Below, piece by piece: positions 48,804 to 64,000 of a stretch of 64,000 bases of DNA. Numbering within the stretch: position 1 is the first letter of the stretch; every line of letters begins with the position of its first letter. The stretch is taken from the NCBI GenBank assembly GCA_003134685.1, contig PLCA01000016.1:118406-182405 (forward strand), given 5' to 3'. This DNA comes from Gemmatimonadota bacterium. Lineage in GTDB: Bacteria > Gemmatimonadota > Gemmatimonadetes > Gemmatimonadales > Gemmatimonadaceae. A program made the translations under genes and the position numbers. The notes under the pieces were generated by a model that did no database searches, was not told where the DNA came from, and was given only the letters and a program-made list of their open reading frames with translations.

Positions 48804-48816
48804 TCTCACTTTTCAG

Positions 48817-55403: not shown

Positions 55404-55447
55404 CGCGCCCGGAGGGACTCGAACCCCCAACCTTCTGATCCGTAGTC
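55404..55447 (-). other. 3' half of tRNA-Arg(ACG): attachment-site remnant
   Basis: On the minus strand these 44 bases read from G30 of a tRNA-Arg(ACG) (GACTACGGATCAGAAGG, T arm GGGGG-TTCGAGT-CCCTC, acceptor 3' strand CGGGCGC, discriminator G). The 5' half is missing: the sequence right of 55447 shows no D arm or acceptor 5' strand. A tRNA 3' end cut in the anticodon stem is the hallmark of integration by a tyrosine recombinase. The intact tRNA-Arg gene would lie to the right, outside or further along the inserted DNA. Confidence 0.85.
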
Positions 55448-55612
55448 TGGCTTATGGGAGATCACTTTACAACATAAAGTCGTGTTTCATAGGGGAAAAG
55501 GGCGTCGGCGTCCTATTTTCCAGCTAATCAAGCAGCACTTTGTAGCGAGAAACTCACACGGAAACTCACACGCCCATTTGGGCTGATCTCTCCTTAGAGA
55601 CAGCGACGCTAC
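55448..55612. other. Spacer next to the tRNA-Arg half, with a 12-bp tandem repeat
   Basis: GAAACTCACACG occurs twice in tandem (55549-55572). No gene is visible. The region is lower in G+C than the core of the window. Confidence 0.5.
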
Positions 55613-55996
55613 TCAGCGAACCCGGACGGTGTCCTCAACAGGAAGCATTTCGGGTCCACCCGCACCCGTGTGTCGAAACACGATGATCGCATTGCCTCCC
55701 GTCGTGGCGTTGAATCGAAACTGCTGCTTCGGGCCAGCCGGTGCGTTAGGACCGACTATCGAAACGTCGAGAAATTGCACCGCCCCGGACGACACCGTTG
55801 GGGGGCTGGCGAATTCCCCTGGGCCAATTGTCTGAAGCGTCACGGCAAATTCTGACCCTGCGGGCACAGTGAAACTCTGACTGTTGCTTCCCTTAATGTC
55901 TATCATGGCAACCGAAAAAGGATTCTTTCCCCCGCAGCTAACAGTTGTGAAAAGCAGCGCAGCCGTACAGGTGAGGTAGGACAAAGTAGGGCTCAC
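55613..55996 (-). CDS. Hypothetical lipoprotein
   Basis: 127 aa: LTCTAALLFTTVSCGGKNPF gives a lipobox at Cys21. The mature part is a small beta-rich domain (SFTVPAGSEFAVTLQTIGPG, QQFRFNATTGGNAIIVFRHT) of the kind seen in chagasin-like or immunoglobulin-like inhibitors, but I do not claim a family. It is a single gene just inside the tRNA-Arg junction. Confidence 0.65.
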   Translation of the reverse strand: MSPTLSYLTCTAALLFTTVSCGGKNPFSVAMIDIKGSNSQSFTVPAGSEFAVTLQTIGPGEFASPPTVSSGAVQFLDVSIVGPNAPAGPKQQFRFNATTGGNAIIVFRHTGAGGPEMLPVEDTVRVR

Positions 55997-56289
55997 AGGC
56001 GTCTCCGGTGGAAGTTCGGATAGAGGGTAATGGCAATTGGTTTTTCACCTGCATAGGCCGCGCCTTTACGGAACCCGCTGGAACGGGGGTCGGCATCCGA
56101 TTCTCAATCGATCTAGGTTGAATTAGGAATAGGCATGCGGGTACTGTCCGACTAAAGGGGACACCACAGGCATGCGAATCGAGGTCATTCGAGGCTGTGT
56201 CAGTCGCTATCTTTGTCGCAGAAAGGCGGTTTCCCGGTGGCACATTCATTCTGAAACCGCCGTGCTCATCGCGTCACCCGGGAGGTTCT

Positions 56290-56736
56290 ATGCGCCAGAT
56301 TTGTCGGGCCGTAATGCTGATGTTGCTGGTCGTCTCGTGCGAGTCCACTGGACCGTTGTTTTCTCCAGAGGTGCGACTTGCCGTGCAGCAGGCGCAGTGG
56401 CGACAGCAAGGAATTCACGACTACAATTTCGACTACGCCTTTTCCGGCGCGTGGGTGGCGCCTCCGCCAGTCCGAATAGTGGTGATCGCCGACACCGTGC
56501 GGAGCGCCACAGTGATCGCTACCGGCGCCCAAAGGCCGATCGCGGGAATGCCTACGATCGATAGCGTCTTCGCTATTGTCGGGCAGTCAATTCATTCTGT
56601 AATGGGGCAGCCGGTCATCGAATACGACTCGAAGCTGGGTTATCCCACTTCGATCAACACCGTCTCCTCATTACCGCCCGATGCCGGCTTCGTCATCTCG
56701 GTTCGCAATCTGTTGCAGGTGGCGCTCATTCAGTAA
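56290..56736 (+). CDS. DUF6174-like lipoprotein
   Basis: 148 aa. Lipobox MLLVVSCES, then QAQWRQQGIHDYNFDYAFSG and VRIVVIADTVRSATVIATGA, with YDSKLGYPTSINTVSSLPPD near the end. That pattern (a helix WRxxxxxxYxF then paired strands, YDxxxGYPxxI) fits DUF6174. The role is unknown; the family is small, extracytoplasmic and often found in accessory regions. GGGAGG lies six bases before the ATG. Confidence 0.75.
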   Translation: MRQICRAVMLMLLVVSCESTGPLFSPEVRLAVQQAQWRQQGIHDYNFDYAFSGAWVAPPPVRIVVIADTVRSATVIATGAQRPIAGMPTIDSVFAIVGQSIHSVMGQPVIEYDSKLGYPTSINTVSSLPPDAGFVISVRNLLQVALIQ

Positions 56737-56836
56737 TTGTGCAGGGACAAACGCACGATTCAGCGCGATCGCTCGTTTGGGGTCAAGGGAGATCGATCGA
56801 GCGATGCTTCGCATGCCGGGGCCGCATTCTATCGGA

Positions 56837-57169
56837 ATGATATCGGCTCCGCGCATCCCTGATCGCCAGACGATTGCATCAGCTTCTAAATTTCTTGACG
56901 TGCCTACCGACGCTGAGCGCTTCCGCTTCATCGCGAAGTTTCGCCTGCACGTCTCCTTCCACGATGACCACGTTACCCTCATGTGGCAGGAGAAGGTTCA
57001 GCACCGGGAAACGAGTCCGCCGTATTACCCCGTCGCTGGTGGCTTGACCCTGGCCGATGCAACGGACGCGGCCATCGCTCGCTACGGTCGCAACCACGGG
57101 GTCACGACGCCCGAGGTCCCGGAACGGACTGGCGTGCAGTGGTTGCAGATACGTGGCTGGGTCAGCTAG
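56837..57169 (+). CDS. Hypothetical protein (110 aa), possible
   Basis: From ATG 56837 an open frame gives a protein with FRFIAKFRLHVSFHDDHVTL and AIARYGRNHGVTTPEVPERT. Third-position G/C is high, as in the other real genes, and there is no better frame here. No domain known, no clear ribosome site. It may be a real small gene or a fragment. Confidence 0.4.
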   Translation: MISAPRIPDRQTIASASKFLDVPTDAERFRFIAKFRLHVSFHDDHVTLMWQEKVQHRETSPPYYPVAGGLTLADATDAAIARYGRNHGVTTPEVPERTGVQWLQIRGWVS

Positions 57170-57197
57170 CCAGAGCGTTGCTCGGAGGTGAGCAGCC

Positions 57198-57647
57198 TCA
57201 CATCAATATTTCAGAAAAGCCGCGGAGGACTCTTTCTATTCTCCACTTGCCGTTTCGACGAACAAGGAGAATGTGCTCGCCGTAGGCGATAGCTTGTCGT
57301 CCGCCGCCAGGATAAATGCGCTGCATTGTTGCGATCGCGCTATCGCCCATCAACTTGTTGACACGCACGCTCAGTTCGGATCGCTGGCATTGGGCTATGT
57401 CGGACGGACAAACGAACGGTTTCCCGATGGGGACAATTTTATAACGAGTGTCCCGCCTTAGGCTCTTGAAGACACTTGCCGTGAGTTCGTCAGCGAAGAC
57501 TAAATACTCTGGTTGGTGGCTCTGGTCGAAAGGTTCTTGAGTAAAAAGGGCGACCAGCGGCGCTAGCACTGCCGCATCGGGCGAGCTGTGGAAGCAGCTG
57601 GCCAAAGTGAACAAAAGCAGTGACGCCTTCGATCGAGTCATACGCAT
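57198..57647 (-). CDS. Hypothetical lipoprotein
   Basis: 149 aa, leader SLLLFTLASCFHSSPDAAVL with lipobox Cys18. The rest reads HQPEYLVFADELTASVFKSL, RYKIVPIGKPFVCPSDIAQC and HILLVRRNGKWRIERVLRGF; the last part is like the final strands of NTF2/SnoaL-like or DUF domains. No firm family. It lies alone on the minus strand. Confidence 0.62.
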   Translation of the reverse strand: MRMTRSKASLLLFTLASCFHSSPDAAVLAPLVALFTQEPFDQSHQPEYLVFADELTASVFKSLRRDTRYKIVPIGKPFVCPSDIAQCQRSELSVRVNKLMGDSAIATMQRIYPGGGRQAIAYGEHILLVRRNGKWRIERVLRGFSEILM

Positions 57648-57743
57648 GCCGCCCGACTAACGCCCGCGCTCACTTGGTTGGACGGGATGGAATATCACGC
57701 GCTAGGCCTTATCTATTTCCTCGACAATGAGCCTTAGAGCCCA

Positions 57744-58562
57744 CTAATGAAAGTGGACTCCGTGACCGAGGATCACAATAAAAAGGATCGACGTGGCACC
57801 GGCGAGGGCGATGACGGGCCAGCTGCGCGCTATCGGTTCTGGGTCGGTTGGCGGTGCGTTGGCTGCCGGCGTCGGAGCGCCCCGCAACATTTGCGGTCCC
57901 CAGGCCAATCCCGAAGTTCCACCGAGTGATGCCGCGGCTCCCGAGATCGCGACAAGGGCGAGGCCCGCTGGATTGAGAAATCCGGCTAGCAGTGACAGCG
58001 CGCAGCCCGCGAGGTACGACACCGTCGCCAGTCCCAGCGCTCGCCGATAACGCTCCGGTCGTGCTTCACCAATCAACGGGCCCAGCGCATTGAACAGATA
58101 AACGGTGGTCACGAAGTAGAGTGCGGCCCCACCGACCGCGAGAATTGCGCGCCAGAGCCAGGACGGCTCGAGACCGTCAATCACCACTGTCCAGTCGCCG
58201 ATTCCACCGACTCCGGAGAAGAGAAAGTAGCCCGTCCCCACCATGAGATTCACGGCAGCGAAGAGCCAGGCCGAGAAACGCCAGAGCTGCGATGAAGTGC
58301 GCGGTGCCTTGCGGTAAAGAGCGAGTGCGCCCAATCCGAAGATCAGGTTTGCGATCGTGCCACCGGCGGCGACAATTTTTTCAGCGACAGCCCCGAGTCC
58401 GTGGACGTCGCAGTCGAAATCCATCGACGAGAGCTCGCGCGGGATTCCATCGACGAGAAGGCATGCGCCGCCGTGCCCGATTCCTTCATGGACGATGCTC
58501 CCTAACGCGTATGTGAGCGCCGCCACACTTGACACGGTGAGCAGATCGTTCCTGGTAGTCAT
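57744..58562 (-). CDS. Integral membrane protein of unknown function
   Basis: 272 aa with about seven hydrophobic segments. Near the N-terminus stands SIVHEGIGHGGACLLVDGIP; the spacing (HExxxH) is not that of a classical M50 protease HExxH, although the context resembles the first helix of M50-like membrane proteins. Other segments: GTIANLIFGLGALALYRKAP, VNLMVGTGYFLFSGVGGIGD, LALVAISGAAASLGGTSGLA. I do not assign a function; a divergent member of the M50-like group is one option. The C-terminus is a single helix. Confidence 0.68.
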   Translation of the reverse strand: MTTRNDLLTVSSVAALTYALGSIVHEGIGHGGACLLVDGIPRELSSMDFDCDVHGLGAVAEKIVAAGGTIANLIFGLGALALYRKAPRTSSQLWRFSAWLFAAVNLMVGTGYFLFSGVGGIGDWTVVIDGLEPSWLWRAILAVGGAALYFVTTVYLFNALGPLIGEARPERYRRALGLATVSYLAGCALSLLAGFLNPAGLALVAISGAAASLGGTSGLAWGPQMLRGAPTPAANAPPTDPEPIARSWPVIALAGATSILFIVILGHGVHFH

Positions 58563-58816
58563 TATCTAATCAGAAGCTAAATACGTACGCGATGTTGACG
58601 ACCTAATCAAGCGTGTATCGTCCGTATAGTAATGCCTTCAAACTGCATCGATGGACAACGCCAGGACGCGTGCCCGCTGCTGCGATTCCGCGTAACCCGG
58701 TGATTAACAGCTATCCGGTCGCGAAGGATAAGGCGTGAGCGCAAAAGCTGGCTTGGCATATGCTGGCAAAAAGTTGATCTCTTCACCATAACTGAAACCC
58801 AATCCCGGAGGTCTTC

Positions 58817-59266
58817 ATGCGTTTGTCCTGTCAAAAAGCCTTTCTCGTTCTCCTCGTCTCGACGATCGGGTGTCACAACACCACCGCCCCGGAAAGGATA
58901 TCCGCGGGCTTCGTGCTCCAGAGCTTCAATGGGCAGCTCTTGCCGGCAGTCCTGTTTTCCGATGCCACGAGGACCCTCACAGTTGTCTCGTCAATCCTGA
59001 CTTTGACCATGGATGGGCATGCGTTCATCGGTGAATCGTACAGGCAGGATTCTCAAGGCATTGTCACCCAGCCAACCTTTGTTGCGACATTGGACTATCG
59101 ACTCCATGGCGATCAGATAGAGATTGGGTCGTTCACGCCGTGCCCACCCAACGCCCTCTGCGCCGCAAATGCTACGGGAACCCTCGCGAATGGAACATTG
59201 ACTCTCAACAATCCTCTCCCGGCGCCGAACAAGATCTACTTTTACCGAACCGGTCCACTACTCTGA
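58817..59266 (+). CDS. Hypothetical lipoprotein
   Basis: 149 aa, leader CQKAFLVLLVSTIGCHNTTA with lipobox Cys at about 19. The mature chain is beta-rich (GFVLQSFNGQLLPAVLFSDA, ATLDYRLHGDQIEIGSFTPC), with a Cys pair CPPNALC, and ends NKIYFYRTGPLL. Ribosome site GGAGG nine bases before the ATG. No family recognised; similar short lipoproteins lie on both sides. Confidence 0.68.
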   Translation: MRLSCQKAFLVLLVSTIGCHNTTAPERISAGFVLQSFNGQLLPAVLFSDATRTLTVVSSILTLTMDGHAFIGESYRQDSQGIVTQPTFVATLDYRLHGDQIEIGSFTPCPPNALCAANATGTLANGTLTLNNPLPAPNKIYFYRTGPLL

Positions 59267-59464
59267 TCGACAAATAGTTTTCAGGCTTCACTGGCGCTCA
59301 CATCCCAAGCCAGCCGCCAGTGAAGCCGGCTTACACCCTATCAATACATCGAGTGTGCGTTACCATATTCGGCCTTCACCTAGCGCCATCTAGCGCGGAA
59401 ATGGGGGCAGTATGGGAAACAGCTATGGGATTGGGAGGCGGGCTAACTTGTTGTCATTATTGAA

Positions 59465-59508
59465 TGGGCCTGGGTAGAGTTGAACTACCGACCTCACGCT
59501 TATCAGGC
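59465..59508 (-). other. 3' half of tRNA-Ile(GAU): second attachment-site remnant
   Basis: On the minus strand the 44 bases read from G30 of tRNA-Ile: GCCTGATAAGCGTGAGG (anticodon GAU), then the T arm with TTCAACT loop and acceptor CAGGCCC with discriminator A. The bases right of 59508 do not continue the tRNA. It is truncated at the same tRNA position as the Arg half at 55404, and has the same orientation. Confidence 0.83.
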
Positions 59509-59779
59509 AGCTTCATACGAACATGAAATAGGCTCAGAAGTTCCTACTCGCCTGCCTTCCACGAACAGCCTGCTCAGCATCTCGCGCATTTAAGAACATC
59601 TTGCGCATTTCCGCGAACATTTTGCGTATACGAATGGACACCACAACGGACACCAGGGCGCCCTACGCGAAGATTCGCAATAGGTCGTGGTCCGCCAGTG
59701 ACCGACCTGAGCCACAGAGTGGGATCGCGAGGCAGGTTTTGCGTCAGTGAAGAAAACCGCGCGCGTGATCGTCGGCTAC
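59509..59779. other. Spacer with short tandem repeats beside the tRNA-Ile half
   Basis: Three related units occur at 59578, 59597 and 59618 (CATCTCGCGCATTT, CATCTTGCGCATTT, CATTTTGCGTAT) spaced 19 and 21 bases, and GGACACCA occurs twice near 59637-59660. On the minus strand a frame reads MFAEMRKMFLNARDAEQAVR and ends just before the tRNA half; it may be the last bit of a lost gene. The stretch 59267-59464 on the other side holds nothing I recognise. Confidence 0.4.
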
Positions 59780-60628
59780 CTAGAACGGCGAGACGATATC
59801 CATCAGTGCCACTTTCTTGTAGCCGGCGGGGATCGAGAAGAGCGATTCTGGTACGACTCTCTTTTCGTAGTTCAGAGTTTCGAGTGACATATGCTGCGTA
59901 CGGGCGCCGGCCGCGGTCGTAGCCGTGGTTGCAGTGACCGTCTTCAACGTCGTTCCACACTTCGCCAACCGCTTGGCCACCTTGGCTGTCTGCTCGGCCA
60001 TGGCTTCCGCTCCGGGAATCGTGCGAGTCATGGAGCGGAGGCGGGCCGAAGTCGATTTCGTTCGTACCGAATCGCGCTCCGTGGAATCCGATGCCAGGTC
60101 CGGCGCGACATACAGATCTGTTGTCACCGCCGTTGCCCGGACGCTTGTGTCGCCGAACATGGTCATCGTCATGCGCGATGTGGAATGCGTGCGAAAATGA
60201 AGAGTCTTGTGCCCGGCGATGGTCGGGCCGGGTCCAATGCTGTCTATCGTTGCACTGTCGCCTGTTGGTTCGAATTTCATCGCCACGCCAGCGATTCCCG
60301 CGCTCGACATAATCGAAGATTGTTTCATCTCAGCGTAAATCTTTCTTGCGGAATCCATGAAAATTATGGTCATGTCGCTGTCACCCGTCATCATCAACTC
60401 TGTCAGCCCGGGTCGAAAGACCGGTGAGGCCGCGGCAGTCGAGCTGATATAGTCCACGCGAACCCTCTCCTTGGACGTGACAGTGCGTGAGAGGATCGTG
60501 TCGGACTTTCCGGCTACTGCTTCCATTATCGTGCGCTGATCAACGACGACAGCTTTCGTTTGGGCAGCGGCAGCGGCGGCAAAGCTGGTTACAGCAATCG
60601 GACATATCAGGGCACGCATCGTCAACAT
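59780..60628 (-). CDS. Secreted protein, DUF4412-like
   Basis: About 282 aa from ATG 60628 (GGAG eight bases before). Signal peptide MRALICPIAVTSFAAAAAAQ after a short leader; then SDTILSRTVTSKERVRVDYI, LMMTGDSDMTIIFMDSARKI and GHKTLHFRTHSTSRMTMTMF, a pattern (beta strands with conserved MDSxxKxY) like DUF4412 proteins of unknown function exported to the periplasm. The C-terminus VVPESLFSIPAGYKKVAL supports this. Divergent from the beta-helix gene. Confidence 0.68.
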   Translation of the reverse strand: MLTMRALICPIAVTSFAAAAAAQTKAVVVDQRTIMEAVAGKSDTILSRTVTSKERVRVDYISSTAAASPVFRPGLTELMMTGDSDMTIIFMDSARKIYAEMKQSSIMSSAGIAGVAMKFEPTGDSATIDSIGPGPTIAGHKTLHFRTHSTSRMTMTMFGDTSVRATAVTTDLYVAPDLASDSTERDSVRTKSTSARLRSMTRTIPGAEAMAEQTAKVAKRLAKCGTTLKTVTATTATTAAGARTQHMSLETLNYEKRVVPESLFSIPAGYKKVALMDIVSPF

Positions 60629-60704
60629 CCGGTAACTCCAAACAGGGGTTGTCATCTCAATCTATGCTCCGCGGTTCACTCACGCTGTCGCCGACCGTCT
60701 TGTA

Positions 60705-62429
60705 ATGATCGATCAGGGGCAGCAGGACCAACTCGACCGATCAGTACGACTCTCCGAGTCCTTCGACCCCGCGCTTTACAACTTGATTCTAAGCGAGCTT
60801 ACAGCGGGTAAAGTGGTAACTGGGACAGGCGGTGGACTCACGATGTCCACGATCTCAACTGCCGCCGCTGTGGCGTTGCCAGGTGCAGGTCGAACCGTGC
60901 CGACGCTTTCAGCCTACCTCGCCAACAACGCCGTCCTGAATCTCAAGGACTTCGGTGGAGTCGTAGATGGAGCCACAGACGACACGGCCGCACTTCTCGC
61001 GACAGTGGCCGCGGCTCCTGCCGGCGGCTCTACTATCCTCATTCCGGGCTTCGCTAAAATCTCGGGAACCATCACGATCAATACGCCCGACGTGACGGTG
61101 ATAGGCCCGGGGACTTCGGGCGGAATAATTCCGGCCAATGCGACCTTTAACCCGTTCACGCTTGGCCCTCTGGCTCACCGCTGCAAGTTCCTGAACATGT
61201 GGATCAAAGGAGCAGCCGTTGACGCTACCACCATTCAGTTCGGGATCTACACGAATGCCTTGGCAGCACCCGACGATGTAGAAATCGCGGGCTGCTTCTT
61301 CGGGAATCCTCTAATCGGTGGCGTGAACTCGCTTAACTCAGCCATCAAGATCGACGGTGGCAACGGGTGGAACGTCCACCACTGCAAGGCCAAATATCTC
61401 TGGGGCACGATTTCAAATACCGGCTATGGGATTCTCGCCGGGACAACCAACAAACTGCACGCGCACGACAACGAATTCCTGGGTACCACAGGCCGCGGTC
61501 GGCACGCTGTCTATCTCTCGGGCGGTTGTACGTATTGCGATGTCCACGACAATCATGCTGAGAACCTGGCCGAAGACGGGTTCCCGATATTCTCAACAAG
61601 TATCCAGGCCGCGGGAATCGGGAACCACGTCCACAACAACGTGGCTATCAACTGCGGCCAGTTAACGGCCGGGAGTGCTGCCTTCTCGGTATCCGGGAAC
61701 TCGAGCCGGAACATCATCGAGAACAACCTGGCGGTCAACTTCCAAGGCAATGGCTATATCGTAGCGGCTTTGGGAGTGGCTGCGATTACAGACGGCAACA
61801 TCTTCCGTAACAACTGGTCCTATTTCTCCCAGTGGTACGGAATTCTGAACGAGGGTGCCCAGAACACCGACATCTTCGGCAACACCTTCGCTGAATCTTC
61901 ACGGAGTGGCAGCAACAACTACGCGGCGATAGCGGTTCGTCCGAGCGGAGCGGTGCCCAGTTCAGGTGTGACTGTTCGAGACAACAAGGGTACCGGGGTT
62001 CTTCTGAGAGCGGGCATGGATCTCACGGGTGCCGTTCTCGCTACCGGCCTTCGAGTGGATAACAACTATTTCCCCGATGGGGTCACGTCCAAGATCGATA
62101 ATCCCAACAACGTCTTGTTCTCCGGGCAGAACAACGACTTTGGCCTCCCTTCCTACTCGGGCAACCAGGGCGACGTGAGCGTAACACTTCGGGTCGGTCG
62201 GGACGCGGAAGTCGATCTCTTCGCTTCCAGCCTGACAGCGAATCGGACAGTAACGCTGGACACGGTGAGCGCGTACAGTGGGGCCAAGTTCCGGATCGTG
62301 AGGACGGGCCTCGGTGCGTTCACTCTCGACGTAGGCGGCCTCAAAACCATTCCGATCTCGACCGTGGCTTTCGTGGATGTGCAGTATGAGAGCGGTGCGT
62401 GGAAACTCAGCGGATACGGGACGCTATGA
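60705..62429 (+). CDS. Right-handed beta-helix protein, phage tailspike/pectate-lyase-like
   Basis: 574 aa without a signal peptide. Residues about 78-130 show the pectate-lyase-3 entry (LKDFGGVVDGATDDTAALLA, GGSTILIPGFAKISGTITIN), followed by short repeating coils rich in Asn and Gly (NGWNVHHCKAKYLWGTISNT, NKLHAHDNEFLGTTGRGRHA, NIFRNNWSYFSQWYGILNEG) over 300 residues. The C-terminal 100 residues are a separate beta domain ending VQYESGAWKLSGYGTL. The N-terminus (SVRLSESFDPALYNLILSEL) looks like a tail-attachment segment. It could be a prophage tailspike or depolymerase, but no other phage gene is nearby. No ribosome site is obvious before ATG 60705. Confidence 0.78.
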   Translation: MIDQGQQDQLDRSVRLSESFDPALYNLILSELTAGKVVTGTGGGLTMSTISTAAAVALPGAGRTVPTLSAYLANNAVLNLKDFGGVVDGATDDTAALLATVAAAPAGGSTILIPGFAKISGTITINTPDVTVIGPGTSGGIIPANATFNPFTLGPLAHRCKFLNMWIKGAAVDATTIQFGIYTNALAAPDDVEIAGCFFGNPLIGGVNSLNSAIKIDGGNGWNVHHCKAKYLWGTISNTGYGILAGTTNKLHAHDNEFLGTTGRGRHAVYLSGGCTYCDVHDNHAENLAEDGFPIFSTSIQAAGIGNHVHNNVAINCGQLTAGSAAFSVSGNSSRNIIENNLAVNFQGNGYIVAALGVAAITDGNIFRNNWSYFSQWYGILNEGAQNTDIFGNTFAESSRSGSNNYAAIAVRPSGAVPSSGVTVRDNKGTGVLLRAGMDLTGAVLATGLRVDNNYFPDGVTSKIDNPNNVLFSGQNNDFGLPSYSGNQGDVSVTLRVGRDAEVDLFASSLTANRTVTLDTVSAYSGAKFRIVRTGLGAFTLDVGGLKTIPISTVAFVDVQYESGAWKLSGYGTL

Positions 62430-62469
62430 CCGCGCGAATGGTTCGGAGTCCCTCACCGATAGAGGATGC

Positions 62470-62676
62470 TTACCCGCCAAGCTCTAGCGTTTCTGCCATT
62501 TTTGTTAGGGCCGCCATCACCCCGCGTACTCCGATTGGATTGGTAGGATGCTCCAGATGGAACGAGTCCATGTCTGACTCAATTCCGTGTCGCTTAAACG
62601 CCTCCGAGATCGCAAGAGCGCGTCCGAGGGCCTTTCCCTGGTCTGTTTTGCGACACATTTGTGTGAATAATTTCAT
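62470..62676 (-). CDS. Small hypothetical protein (68 aa)
   Basis: The frame MKLFTQMCRKTDQGKALGRA continues AISEAFKRHGIESDMDSFHL and ends MAALTKMAETLELGG. Composition is protein-like, with an amphipathic helix at each end, and codons are less G/C-biased than the core genes. No clear ribosome site. Possibly a phage or accessory gene. Confidence 0.45.
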   Translation of the reverse strand: MKLFTQMCRKTDQGKALGRALAISEAFKRHGIESDMDSFHLEHPTNPIGVRGVMAALTKMAETLELGG

Positions 62677-62811
62677 GTTTTTAGGGGACTTTTGACACTG
62701 TAAATCGTCTTATTAACGGGGGCAGGGCTGTACGCAGGCCCGGACCAAATAGCCCGCTTTTCAGGCAGGGCGCGTTTCAAGGAAGCACAAACCTTTCATT
62801 GGGAATCCAAG

Positions 62812-63348
62812 ATGCGGTCGACCTATTCATTTGCAGCCGTATTGCTCGGAACTCTGATTAGCGCAGGTCAAGTCGGTGCTCAGTGCAGCGGCAACGCGGG
62901 CACTTGCAATACGACGAATACGGCCTCCGTAACCGTTGGTGCGCTCGTCAAGCTTGGAATGAGCGCCAGCACGACTTCCCTCACATCGCCGACCGCGGAC
63001 CAGGTCGATATTGGCGCATTGGTGGCTGATGTTGGACCAACCTTCACCATAAAGGCAAACCGCAGCTGGACGATGAACATCAAGTCCGGCAATGCAGCCA
63101 ACTGGACGTACGTTGGATCGAACGCAGGCGTAAAGTCTATTGCTGATCTGACGTGGTCAAATGCTGTCGCGGGAACCTACGCCGCGCTCACTTCGAGCGA
63201 CGCCGTATTCACGAGCGGCGCAAGCGCATCAGGCGGAACAGCTGCATCGGCCTTTTTCAAGACGAATTATCCTGCCGGCTTCACGAACGCGGCGAATGCC
63301 CCAGGCACGTACAGTTTACCCGTTGTTTTCACTCTAACAGCGCCCTAA
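62812..63348 (+). CDS. Secreted pilin-partner protein, copy B
   Basis: 178 aa paralogue of the gene at 49211. Signal peptide (FAAVLLGTLISAGQVGAQ), Cys pair CSGNAGTC, then TVGALVKLGMSASTTSLTSP, TADQVDIGALVADVGPTFTI, KANRSWTMNIKSGNAANWTY and the end GTYSLPVVFTLTAP. Conserved blocks are spread over the whole length, so the whole domain was duplicated, with the next gene. It lies 43 bases before the third pilin. Confidence 0.85.
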   Translation: MRSTYSFAAVLLGTLISAGQVGAQCSGNAGTCNTTNTASVTVGALVKLGMSASTTSLTSPTADQVDIGALVADVGPTFTIKANRSWTMNIKSGNAANWTYVGSNAGVKSIADLTWSNAVAGTYAALTSSDAVFTSGASASGGTAASAFFKTNYPAGFTNAANAPGTYSLPVVFTLTAP

Positions 63349-63391
63349 CTGGTCTGATGGGTGCTGTCCAACCGCTTACGGAGACACAAAA

Positions 63392-63757
63392 ATGAGCAAT
63401 AAAAAGGGTTTTACACTTATCGAGCTTCTGATTGTAGTCGTCATCATCGGCATTCTAGCCGCAATCGCGATTCCTAAGTTTGCGAACACGAAGGACAAGG
63501 CGTATGTCGCAGCGATGAAGTCTGACATGCGTAATCTGGCCACCTACGAAGAGCAATACGCCGCTGACAACAACGGTGCCTACTTCGGTGGAACCGCGAC
63601 CACTGCGGCTCCTCTGCAGGGCTTCACGCCGTCGCAGAATGTGACGGTCATTGCAGTCAACATTGTCGGGCCGCCGCTTGCTTGGACCGCAACCGCGACC
63701 CACTCGCAGTCAGCAAAGGTCTGCTCGAATACGACCGGTGTGATCGTCTGCGTCTAA
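63392..63757 (+). CDS. Type IV major pilin-like protein, copy 3
   Basis: 121 aa prepilin with leader MSNKKG and mature FTLIELLIVVVIIGILAAIA; the globular part is PLQGFTPSQNVTVIAVNIVG and ends with Cys pair VCSNTTGVIVC. At base level it is closest to copy 2: the first 30 or so bases after the leader are the same. It forms a bicistronic unit with the partner upstream and is closed by a terminator. Confidence 0.95.
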   Translation: MSNKKGFTLIELLIVVVIIGILAAIAIPKFANTKDKAYVAAMKSDMRNLATYEEQYAADNNGAYFGGTATTAAPLQGFTPSQNVTVIAVNIVGPPLAWTATATHSQSAKVCSNTTGVIVCV

Positions 63758-63787
63758 AGAGAGGCGTTGGAGATTTGGGTTAGGATA

Positions 63788-63822
63788 GAAACGGGGGCGG
63801 TGTGGTGACGCCCCCGTTTTCT
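63788..63822 (+). terminator. Intrinsic terminator of pilin module 3
   Basis: AACGGGGGCG and CGCCCCCGTT form a 10-bp stem around GTGTGGTGA, followed by TTCT. The following 140 bases to the next start hold nothing recognised. Confidence 0.85.
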
Positions 63823-63962
63823 ATTGCCATCTCTTAGTCGCAGTTTCGGTGCGCAGGCCAGTCGCTTCTCCGGCGATAACTGATCCGTTGCAACCATCAT
63901 CATTGCCATTCCTGATTTGTCGTACCGTTCAAAACGTAAGGGTGACCATCAGGAGGAAGCGA

Positions 63963-64000
63963 ATGAAACTCACGTCTGAGACGCCGGTAGTAACTCGGCG
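63963..64000 (+). CDS. Start of an unidentified gene, cut by window edge
   Basis: ATG 63963 is preceded by a very strong ribosome site (AGGAGG, about six bases before). Only MKLTSETPVVTR is inside the window; nothing more can be said. Confidence 0.5.
   Translation, partial: MKLTSETPVVTR

Follow-up and report, generated by a model that had tools for sequence, protein, structure and literature searches.

The window, a 64,000-nucleotide stretch of DNA (G000:C4:118406-182405) in a 3.63-Mb, 98%-complete Gemmatimonadaceae genome (G000), contains the 3' halves of two different tRNA genes. Both are 44 nt long and in the same orientation, with 4.0 kb between them. The tRNA-Ile(GAU) half (GCCTGATAAGCGTGAGGTCGGTAGTTCAACTCTACCCAGGCCCA) is identical to positions 30-73 of the sole full tRNA-Ile(GAU) found in the genome (C16:143365-143438), and the identity ends at G30. 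The tRNA-Arg(ACG) half (C4:173809-173852) likewise corresponds to positions 30-73 of a tRNA-Arg(ACG) gene (C4:185789-185862, minus strand), which lies intact 11,980 bp beyond it on the same contig and strand. A genome search found 13 further matches to the Ile half elsewhere. Chance can be excluded because exact Ile matches of 44-45 nt have an E value of about 1e-16 in this genome and because the 3' ends of both window halves coincide exactly with the tRNA 3' end. The first-pass annotation was thus right that two real tRNA remnants, equal in length, alike in orientation and derived from different tRNAs, lie here. The features are as follows.

55404..55447, minus strand: 3' half (positions 30-73) of tRNA-Arg(ACG), 44/44 identity; distal (attR) end of the Arg island, with an empty site in G002:C133
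55448..55572, minus strand: Arg-type right arm; direct repeat GAAACTCACACG at 55549-55560 and 55561-55572
55404..64000, no strand: window part of the tRNA-Arg(ACG) island, which runs on to the intact tRNA-Arg at C4:185789 (window equivalent 67384)
56383..56736, plus strand: cargo gene, 117 aa, DUF6174 (Pfam PF19671, E=1e-14)
57744..58562, minus strand: cargo gene, 272 aa, between the Arg and Ile halves; no family in Pfam, NCBIfam, PHROGs or PADLOC
59465..59508, minus strand: 3' half (positions 30-73) of tRNA-Ile(GAU), 44/44 identity; attR-like right junction of an Ile-type element
59509..59655, minus strand: type C right arm adjoining the Ile half; repeats, putative integrase arm-type sites
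59780..60655, minus strand: cargo gene, 291 aa, inside the Ile junction; no family found
60705..62429, plus strand: cargo gene, 574 aa, right-handed beta-helix/NosD-like, with a weak phage-tail match too
63392..63757, plus strand: pilin-like gene (N_methyl motif), one of many copies in the genus

The tRNA-Arg(ACG) island

An empty site was sought by joining the G000 sequence up to tRNA-Arg position 29 to the sequence from the Arg half and searching relatives with the product. In G002:C133 the tRNA-Arg flanks are contiguous, and a single 811-position alignment spans the junction of the joined G000 flanks. The left flank and tRNA-Arg of G002 are 98% identical to those of G000, and G002 matches the window at about 90% identity over 9.6 kb. 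Because G002 holds both flanks side by side, C4:173809-185789 (11,980 bp) is an insertion in tRNA-Arg(ACG). Only 26-27 bp separate tRNA-Arg(ACG) from tRNA-Pro(CGG) in two other genera of the family; the interval is 18.5 kb in G000, where tRNA-Pro lies at window position 48816. Joins at repeats are possible in MAG assemblies, a caveat that applies to the reading of this island.

By the tests of the Islander program, the island has the expected boundaries (an intact tRNA and a same-orientation 3' fragment) and a length within the accepted 2-200 kb, and it fails for want of an integrase gene. No match to PF00589 or to the profile of the integrase family described below, intact or remnant, was found in C4:173809-185789, and the island ORFs scanned include no transfer gene. 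Of the T4SS and integrase that define an ICE, the window island has neither; in lacking integration and conjugation genes it corresponds to a CIME. Further cargo includes DUF6941 and a weak HicA match, and defence models found only helix-turn-helix matches on the island cargo.

A scan of the whole island for direct repeats of at least 9 bp with a period of 10-14 returned three pairs, two of them at predicted arm positions (-125/-113, and +72 from the tRNA end). The right arm has a 12-bp repeat of period 12 at -125/-113 from the Arg half, and the left arm has CAGCAATCAC twice at C4:185696, outside the window. The island therefore has cores and repeat pairs at both ends, but the left repeat CAGCAATCAC differs from the right repeat GTGTGAGTTTC, and the island may accordingly combine two separate events as a composite.

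Two repeated sequences were seen in this part of the contig. The pilin-like (N_methyl) region at window positions 62812-63757 has 70-84% matches in at least seven other places in G000 and many in the genus, and is a member of a multi-copy pilin family. A stretch of ~178 bp outside the window (C4:187420-187597; L017:12421-12598) matches dozens of places, in G005, G011, G017 and G002; plus- and minus-strand matches are paired at the same spot, and the sequence is palindromic and MITE- or REP-like.

Break points, arm repeats and the integrase family

A census of all tRNA halves in G000, which scored 40 of 74 candidates and may miss weak halves, recovered halves from seven tRNAs: Ile (about 11), Arg, Pro-TGG, Pro-GGG, Ser-GGA, Lys-TTT and Lys-CTT. 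Across 20 halves from these seven tRNAs, the first matching base is position 27 (three halves), 29 (six), 30 (three), 31 (two), 32 (one), 34 (two), 35 (one) or 36 (two). Every one falls in the anticodon stem-loop, as in the crossover of the anticodon-loop class of integration, and none is scattered beyond it. The first-pass annotation had stressed that the two window halves stop at the same base. Both do start at G30; the coincidence is not general, and that the two share this base is partly chance. A rule by which every half breaks exactly at G30 is rejected by the spread of starts over positions 27-36.

Tyrosine integrases that use the anticodon loop treat its 7 bp as the overlap region and the stem as core sites (PMC8371274), and the far end of the resulting island is marked by a displaced tDNA fragment (PMC4383910). 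Given this arrangement of loop and stem, a match would begin in the 5' strand of the stem, and the exact break base floats with chance matches and later mutation. The shared position is thus the outcome of known anticodon-loop integrases, and no new recombinase is needed.

The sequence beside the halves is also structured. Of 27 halves, 18 have a direct-repeat pair within the right-arm interval, compared with 40 of 3000 randomly chosen positions; the pairs lie mostly at -124 to -127 with a period of 12, and went undetected at the other nine halves. Judged from sequence, these pairs are best read as putative arm-type integrase sites. In the window, the type C arm has direct repeats GGACACCA at 59636-59643 and 59648-59655 (-147/-135 from G30) and a second pair, GCGCAARATGTTC, near 59594 and 59615. 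This module recurs, at about 89-93% identity, at C16:149067, C16:151025 and C15:25984-26152 and in G011, G005 and G020. Exact matches to one G000 arm module come from Gemmatimonadaceae MAGs, and arm patterns A, C and X have no exact match in viral contigs.

A five-member alignment (A1) was used to search 61 genomes for the integrase family, remnants included, and 52 cases had a usable C-terminus. In 42 of them a tRNA or tRNA 3' half lies 59-274 bp beyond the C-terminus on the opposite strand, most often at 103-128 bp. Thirteen isoacceptors, Ile and Arg included, adjoin the family in related genomes: Ile in nine cases, Pro-TGG in ten, four each for Pro-CGG, Pro-GGG, Ser-GGA and Arg, two each for Ala, Gln and Gly, and one for Lys. 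The two cases at 274 bp are less secure; in one of these, in G031, a tRNA-Pro is nearer than the tRNA-Arg counted. The suggestion that one class of recombinase uses the anticodon arms of different tRNAs is therefore borne out by most of the family.

In the integrase tree the split between an Ile/Ser and a Pro/Arg/Ala clade is fully supported; the two window halves, Ile and Arg, would accordingly stem from two branches of the family. Intact Ile elements are found in G063, where tRNA-Ile at 1404739 is followed by integrases ending at 1405543 and 1422801 and by Ile halves at 1422638, 1439570 and 1457425; the first element has an identical 12-bp repeat, TGGTGTCCGTTG, at both ends. G066 also has an intact PF00589 integrase between two Ile halves. 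No intact integrase of the Ile clade was found in G000, G005, G006, G011, G017 or G020. Relatives of the integrase in phage and plasmid records are weak (24-29% identity), so no phage or plasmid vehicle was identified.

Ile elements in tandem and inside other islands

Behind the real tRNA-Ile of G000, four Ile halves stand in tandem (C16:147825, 149067, 151025 and 159125), delimiting elements of 4.4, 1.2, 2.0 and 8.1 kb. Stacking, which the first-pass annotation had raised as a cassette-like mode, is thus directly visible, and several Ile elements are shorter than 2 kb. Their right arms are of three types: A (CTGTCGATT), B (CTGTCCGTT) and C (TGGTGTCC with GCGCAARATGTTC). Among the cargo of the C16 array and of the Ile elements on C15 are a beta-lactamase-fold protein, a subtilase, BlaI/BlaR1-like proteins, a TPR protein, a TonB-dependent receptor and sensor kinases. 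Some Ile halves have T-stems that differ from that of the local tRNA-Ile and agree with tRNA-Ile ends found in other lineages, which is what import of donor tRNA ends by the elements would produce; the divergent T-stem at C16:151025 (CGGAGG...CCTCC) is the same in halves of G063.

Several further sequences were observed in or near Ile arrays. A degenerate, inverted Ile-half-like sequence lies just upstream of the type B arm (C16:147640-147683, minus strand). A 3-kb segment of G063, a genome of another family (G063:C9:18237-21269), is 81% identical to C16:155847-158892 and is likely a case of horizontal transfer of Ile-array cargo. Related proteins of ~92 aa (WWWF...RYAPFEA) are encoded near Ile halves in three genomes (L087:3917-4195, L081:4461-4739 and L080:2159-2434); the one copy tested has no Pfam family.

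One element of the C16 array, E2 (C16:147869-149110), consists of a 96-aa ORF, a type C arm and an Ile half, with no integrase. Its ORF, arm and half are 95-96% identical in G011 and G005, in differing array contexts, whereas the core DNA of these genomes is 77-83% identical to that of G000 over most compared regions. On this sequence evidence, E2 appears to have been transferred recently between species. Modules of types A and C also occur in another genus (G020) at 89-94% identity. In two other elements (C16:143439-147868 and C15:28510-33896) a cargo gene occupies the usual integrase position, and no integrase remnant was detected.

Together with the lack of an intact Ile-clade integrase in the six genomes named above, these observations fit a reading in which the Ile elements are more than decayed islands and form a standing pool of small integrase-less cassettes, each with a tRNA core and one to three genes between two arms, that spread with a helper Ile integrase, much as integron cassettes depend on IntI. 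However, one Ile element does carry a C-terminal integrase remnant (C16:149228-149329), so decay does occur, and the left part of E2 is not common to the G011 and G005 copies, for which a larger moving unit or homologous recombination may apply. Neither a helper nor a circular form was seen in these draft genomes, in which integrases may also be missed. We regard such a pool as possible but somewhat doubtful. Mobilisation in trans of integrase-less elements is plausible. In the furthest-reaching form of this reading, which we hold to be equally doubtful, the Gemmatimonadales might maintain a pool of minimal cassettes, each made up of an arm repeat, a 3' tRNA half and between one and three genes of cargo, with no integrase. 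Given a passing helper anticodon-loop integrase, these would travel from species to species and become stacked or nested at tRNA cores, those on other mobile elements among them.

Ile halves also occur inside islands of other tRNAs. An Ile half at C12:283691 lies inside a tRNA-Pro(TGG) island. In G000:C15, G005:C210 and G006:C334 an A-like Ile right arm is joined at the Ile core to a common downstream sequence, and in G002:C198 a B-type Ile arm is joined at the core to the same sequence. The common part runs through GCCTGATAAGCGTGAGGTCGG (with single changes), CACTGCTCGCGAAAGGCAG... and a right arm (TTACCCGTTTCT twice) to the start of a Pro half. Different Ile ends at one core are the outcome expected of site-specific integration into a landing site on a Pro element, and these joins suggest how nesting may arise.

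Other islands showed related features. The C12 island (G000:C12:273759-342710, ~69 kb) ends in tRNA-Pro(TGG) and a Pro half, contains an intact integrase and encodes a coupling protein and VirB4-, VirB6-, VirB8- and CagX/VirB9-like proteins; it is probably an ICE. G000:C15:16000-45000 (L012, L014) is an island graveyard: Ile halves pointing either way are clustered there with halves of Pro-GGG and Pro-TGG and with remnants of integrases, and no complete tRNA-Ile or tRNA-Pro was found in the vicinity. In G015 (C112:131671-131839) the TTACCCGTTTCT arm, elsewhere linked to Pro, is joined to an Arg(ACG) half and, from its sequence, would be an arm type with a changed tRNA target.

The Ile half of the window fits this nesting pattern. 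No left end of an Ile element was found between it and tRNA-Arg, nor any second Ile core in the Arg island, and because the left partner is missing we can only infer the entry route and the order of events. Of the two routes that the first-pass annotation considered necessary, nesting or cassette exchange, nesting is supported in kind by the different Ile ends at one Pro-element site and the absence of the Arg island from G002, and would extend to this copy. The half might instead have entered by chromosomal rearrangement or by homologous recombination between arrays. The missing left partner would agree with this, the arm modules, of which the genome has repeated copies, could recombine, and the mixture of Ile halves in both orientations with Pro halves on C15 suggests shuffling. 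The Ile-arm joins in Pro elements nonetheless fall exactly at the core, a signature of site-specific recombination, and we consider rearrangement rather unlikely.

The remaining alternatives fare far worse. Arrays of short elements with a common repeat and varied cargo recall an integron or super-integron whose attC sites resemble tRNA halves. Yet the family integrases score 20-33 bits against the integron integrase/XerA cut-off of 220, their neighbours are genuine tRNAs of 13 isoacceptors, and what recurs along the array downstream of the intact tRNA is the 3' end of a tRNA. An integrase-free array with junctions unlike any tRNA would have spoken for an integron, as would an IntI-type integrase accompanied by foldable attC sites; neither was seen among the arrays and integrases considered here, and we reject this highly improbable reading. 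That two duplicated tRNA genes decayed independently to coincident break points accounts for the existence of the fragments and nothing more, and is refuted, as the first-pass annotation expected, by the tRNA-Arg site empty in G002 and by the repeat geometry: 20 halves of seven tRNAs break at 27-36 with their 3' ends kept, many beside common arm modules, which leaves this idea next to no credibility. CRISPR spacers can also be tRNA fragments (PMC9897764), and such an origin was set aside because the halves carry arm modules.

Origin of the halves and relation to known islands

We consider it very probable that both halves are attR-type scars of integrative elements moved by the PF00589 tyrosine-integrase family. 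In this scenario, an integrase of the family would catalyse recombination between the attP of an element and a tRNA gene, in the anticodon arm of the latter; the incoming element would bring a new tRNA 3' half, so that the gene remains intact, and the old half (from about position 30 to 73) would be displaced to the far end of the insert. The segment from window position 55404 to C4:185789 is such an element, or a composite, in tRNA-Arg(ACG), and we infer its recombinase from the family, there being no integrase gene within the island. The Ile half and its type C arm mark the right end of an Ile-type element inside this island, which may have integrated at an Ile core on the Arg element, as in the Pro elements, or arrived by rearrangement, its left end being later lost. 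Without an intact cognate integrase, the CIME-like Ile elements of G000 may now be fixed, or movable only if a helper integrase enters. In this Gemmatimonadaceae genome, islands lie behind and within one another, and the majority are without the enzyme for their movement, whether by loss or otherwise.

The preference of tRNA-targeting tyrosine integrases for particular sublocations has been reviewed (PMC8371274), and the finding is for the most part accounted for by what is already known of anticodon-loop tyrosine integrases, of tandem accretion and of CIME-like elements. Like the anticodon-loop islands in Islander, the window island has an intact tRNA at one end and a same-orientation 3' fragment at the other (PMC4383910), with the break in the anticodon stem-loop (PMC4383910, PMC8371274). 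In Islander islands the integrase normally adjoins the tRNA end, whereas neither the window island nor the Ile array of G000 has an intact one, and some elements here fall under the Islander minimum of 2 kb (PMC4383910). Islander rejects islands that lack an integrase or are shorter than 2 kb, and lists only four tandems of three or more among 3919 islands (PMC4383910); arrays of this sort would thus be passed over.

CIMEs (cis-mobilizable elements) also lack integration genes and occur in tandem with ICEs or IMEs, and they keep attL/attR-like ends (PMC5704250), which the ends of the elements here may resemble. They are described as decayed ICEs or IMEs (PMC5704250), whereas in some elements here a cargo gene takes the place of the integrase without any remnant of the latter, and, unlike CIMEs, the elements lie nested in islands of other tRNAs. 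The ssrA islands of Dehalococcoides are similarly arranged in tandem behind one RNA gene with a short direct repeat, and 15 are without an integration module; they involve serine recombinases and ssrA (PMC3146451), as against tyrosine integrases and many tRNAs here. In the additive flexible islands of Alteromonas (PMC4119200) and at tRNA-Lys in Methylophilaceae (PMC10872708), stacked cassettes likewise have a tRNA as their target, and repeated copies of its 3' end mark them. Arm sites, integrase-less units and nesting in islands of other tRNAs are features here that are not described for those islands in the parts of the two papers considered (PMC4119200, PMC10872708). The nested, integrase-less form seen in this clade was not found in the literature searched. 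What is unusual is the breadth of tRNAs that a single family uses, the large number of Ile elements without an integrase, and the presence of landing sites inside other mobile elements.

From the perspective of the family, one group of integrases has spread over at least 13 isoacceptors within one bacterial order while keeping its crossover position and arm geometry, and its integrase-less offspring pile up at tRNA-Ile and within other islands. The Ile cores nested in Pro elements make the landing of one element in another directly testable. A pool of minimal cassettes, if it exists, would amount to a cassette economy like that of integrons, with tRNA halves as its basis. Standard island finders, which require an integrase and at least 2 kb, would miss these arrays, and gene exchange may therefore be undercounted, above all in uncultured phyla.
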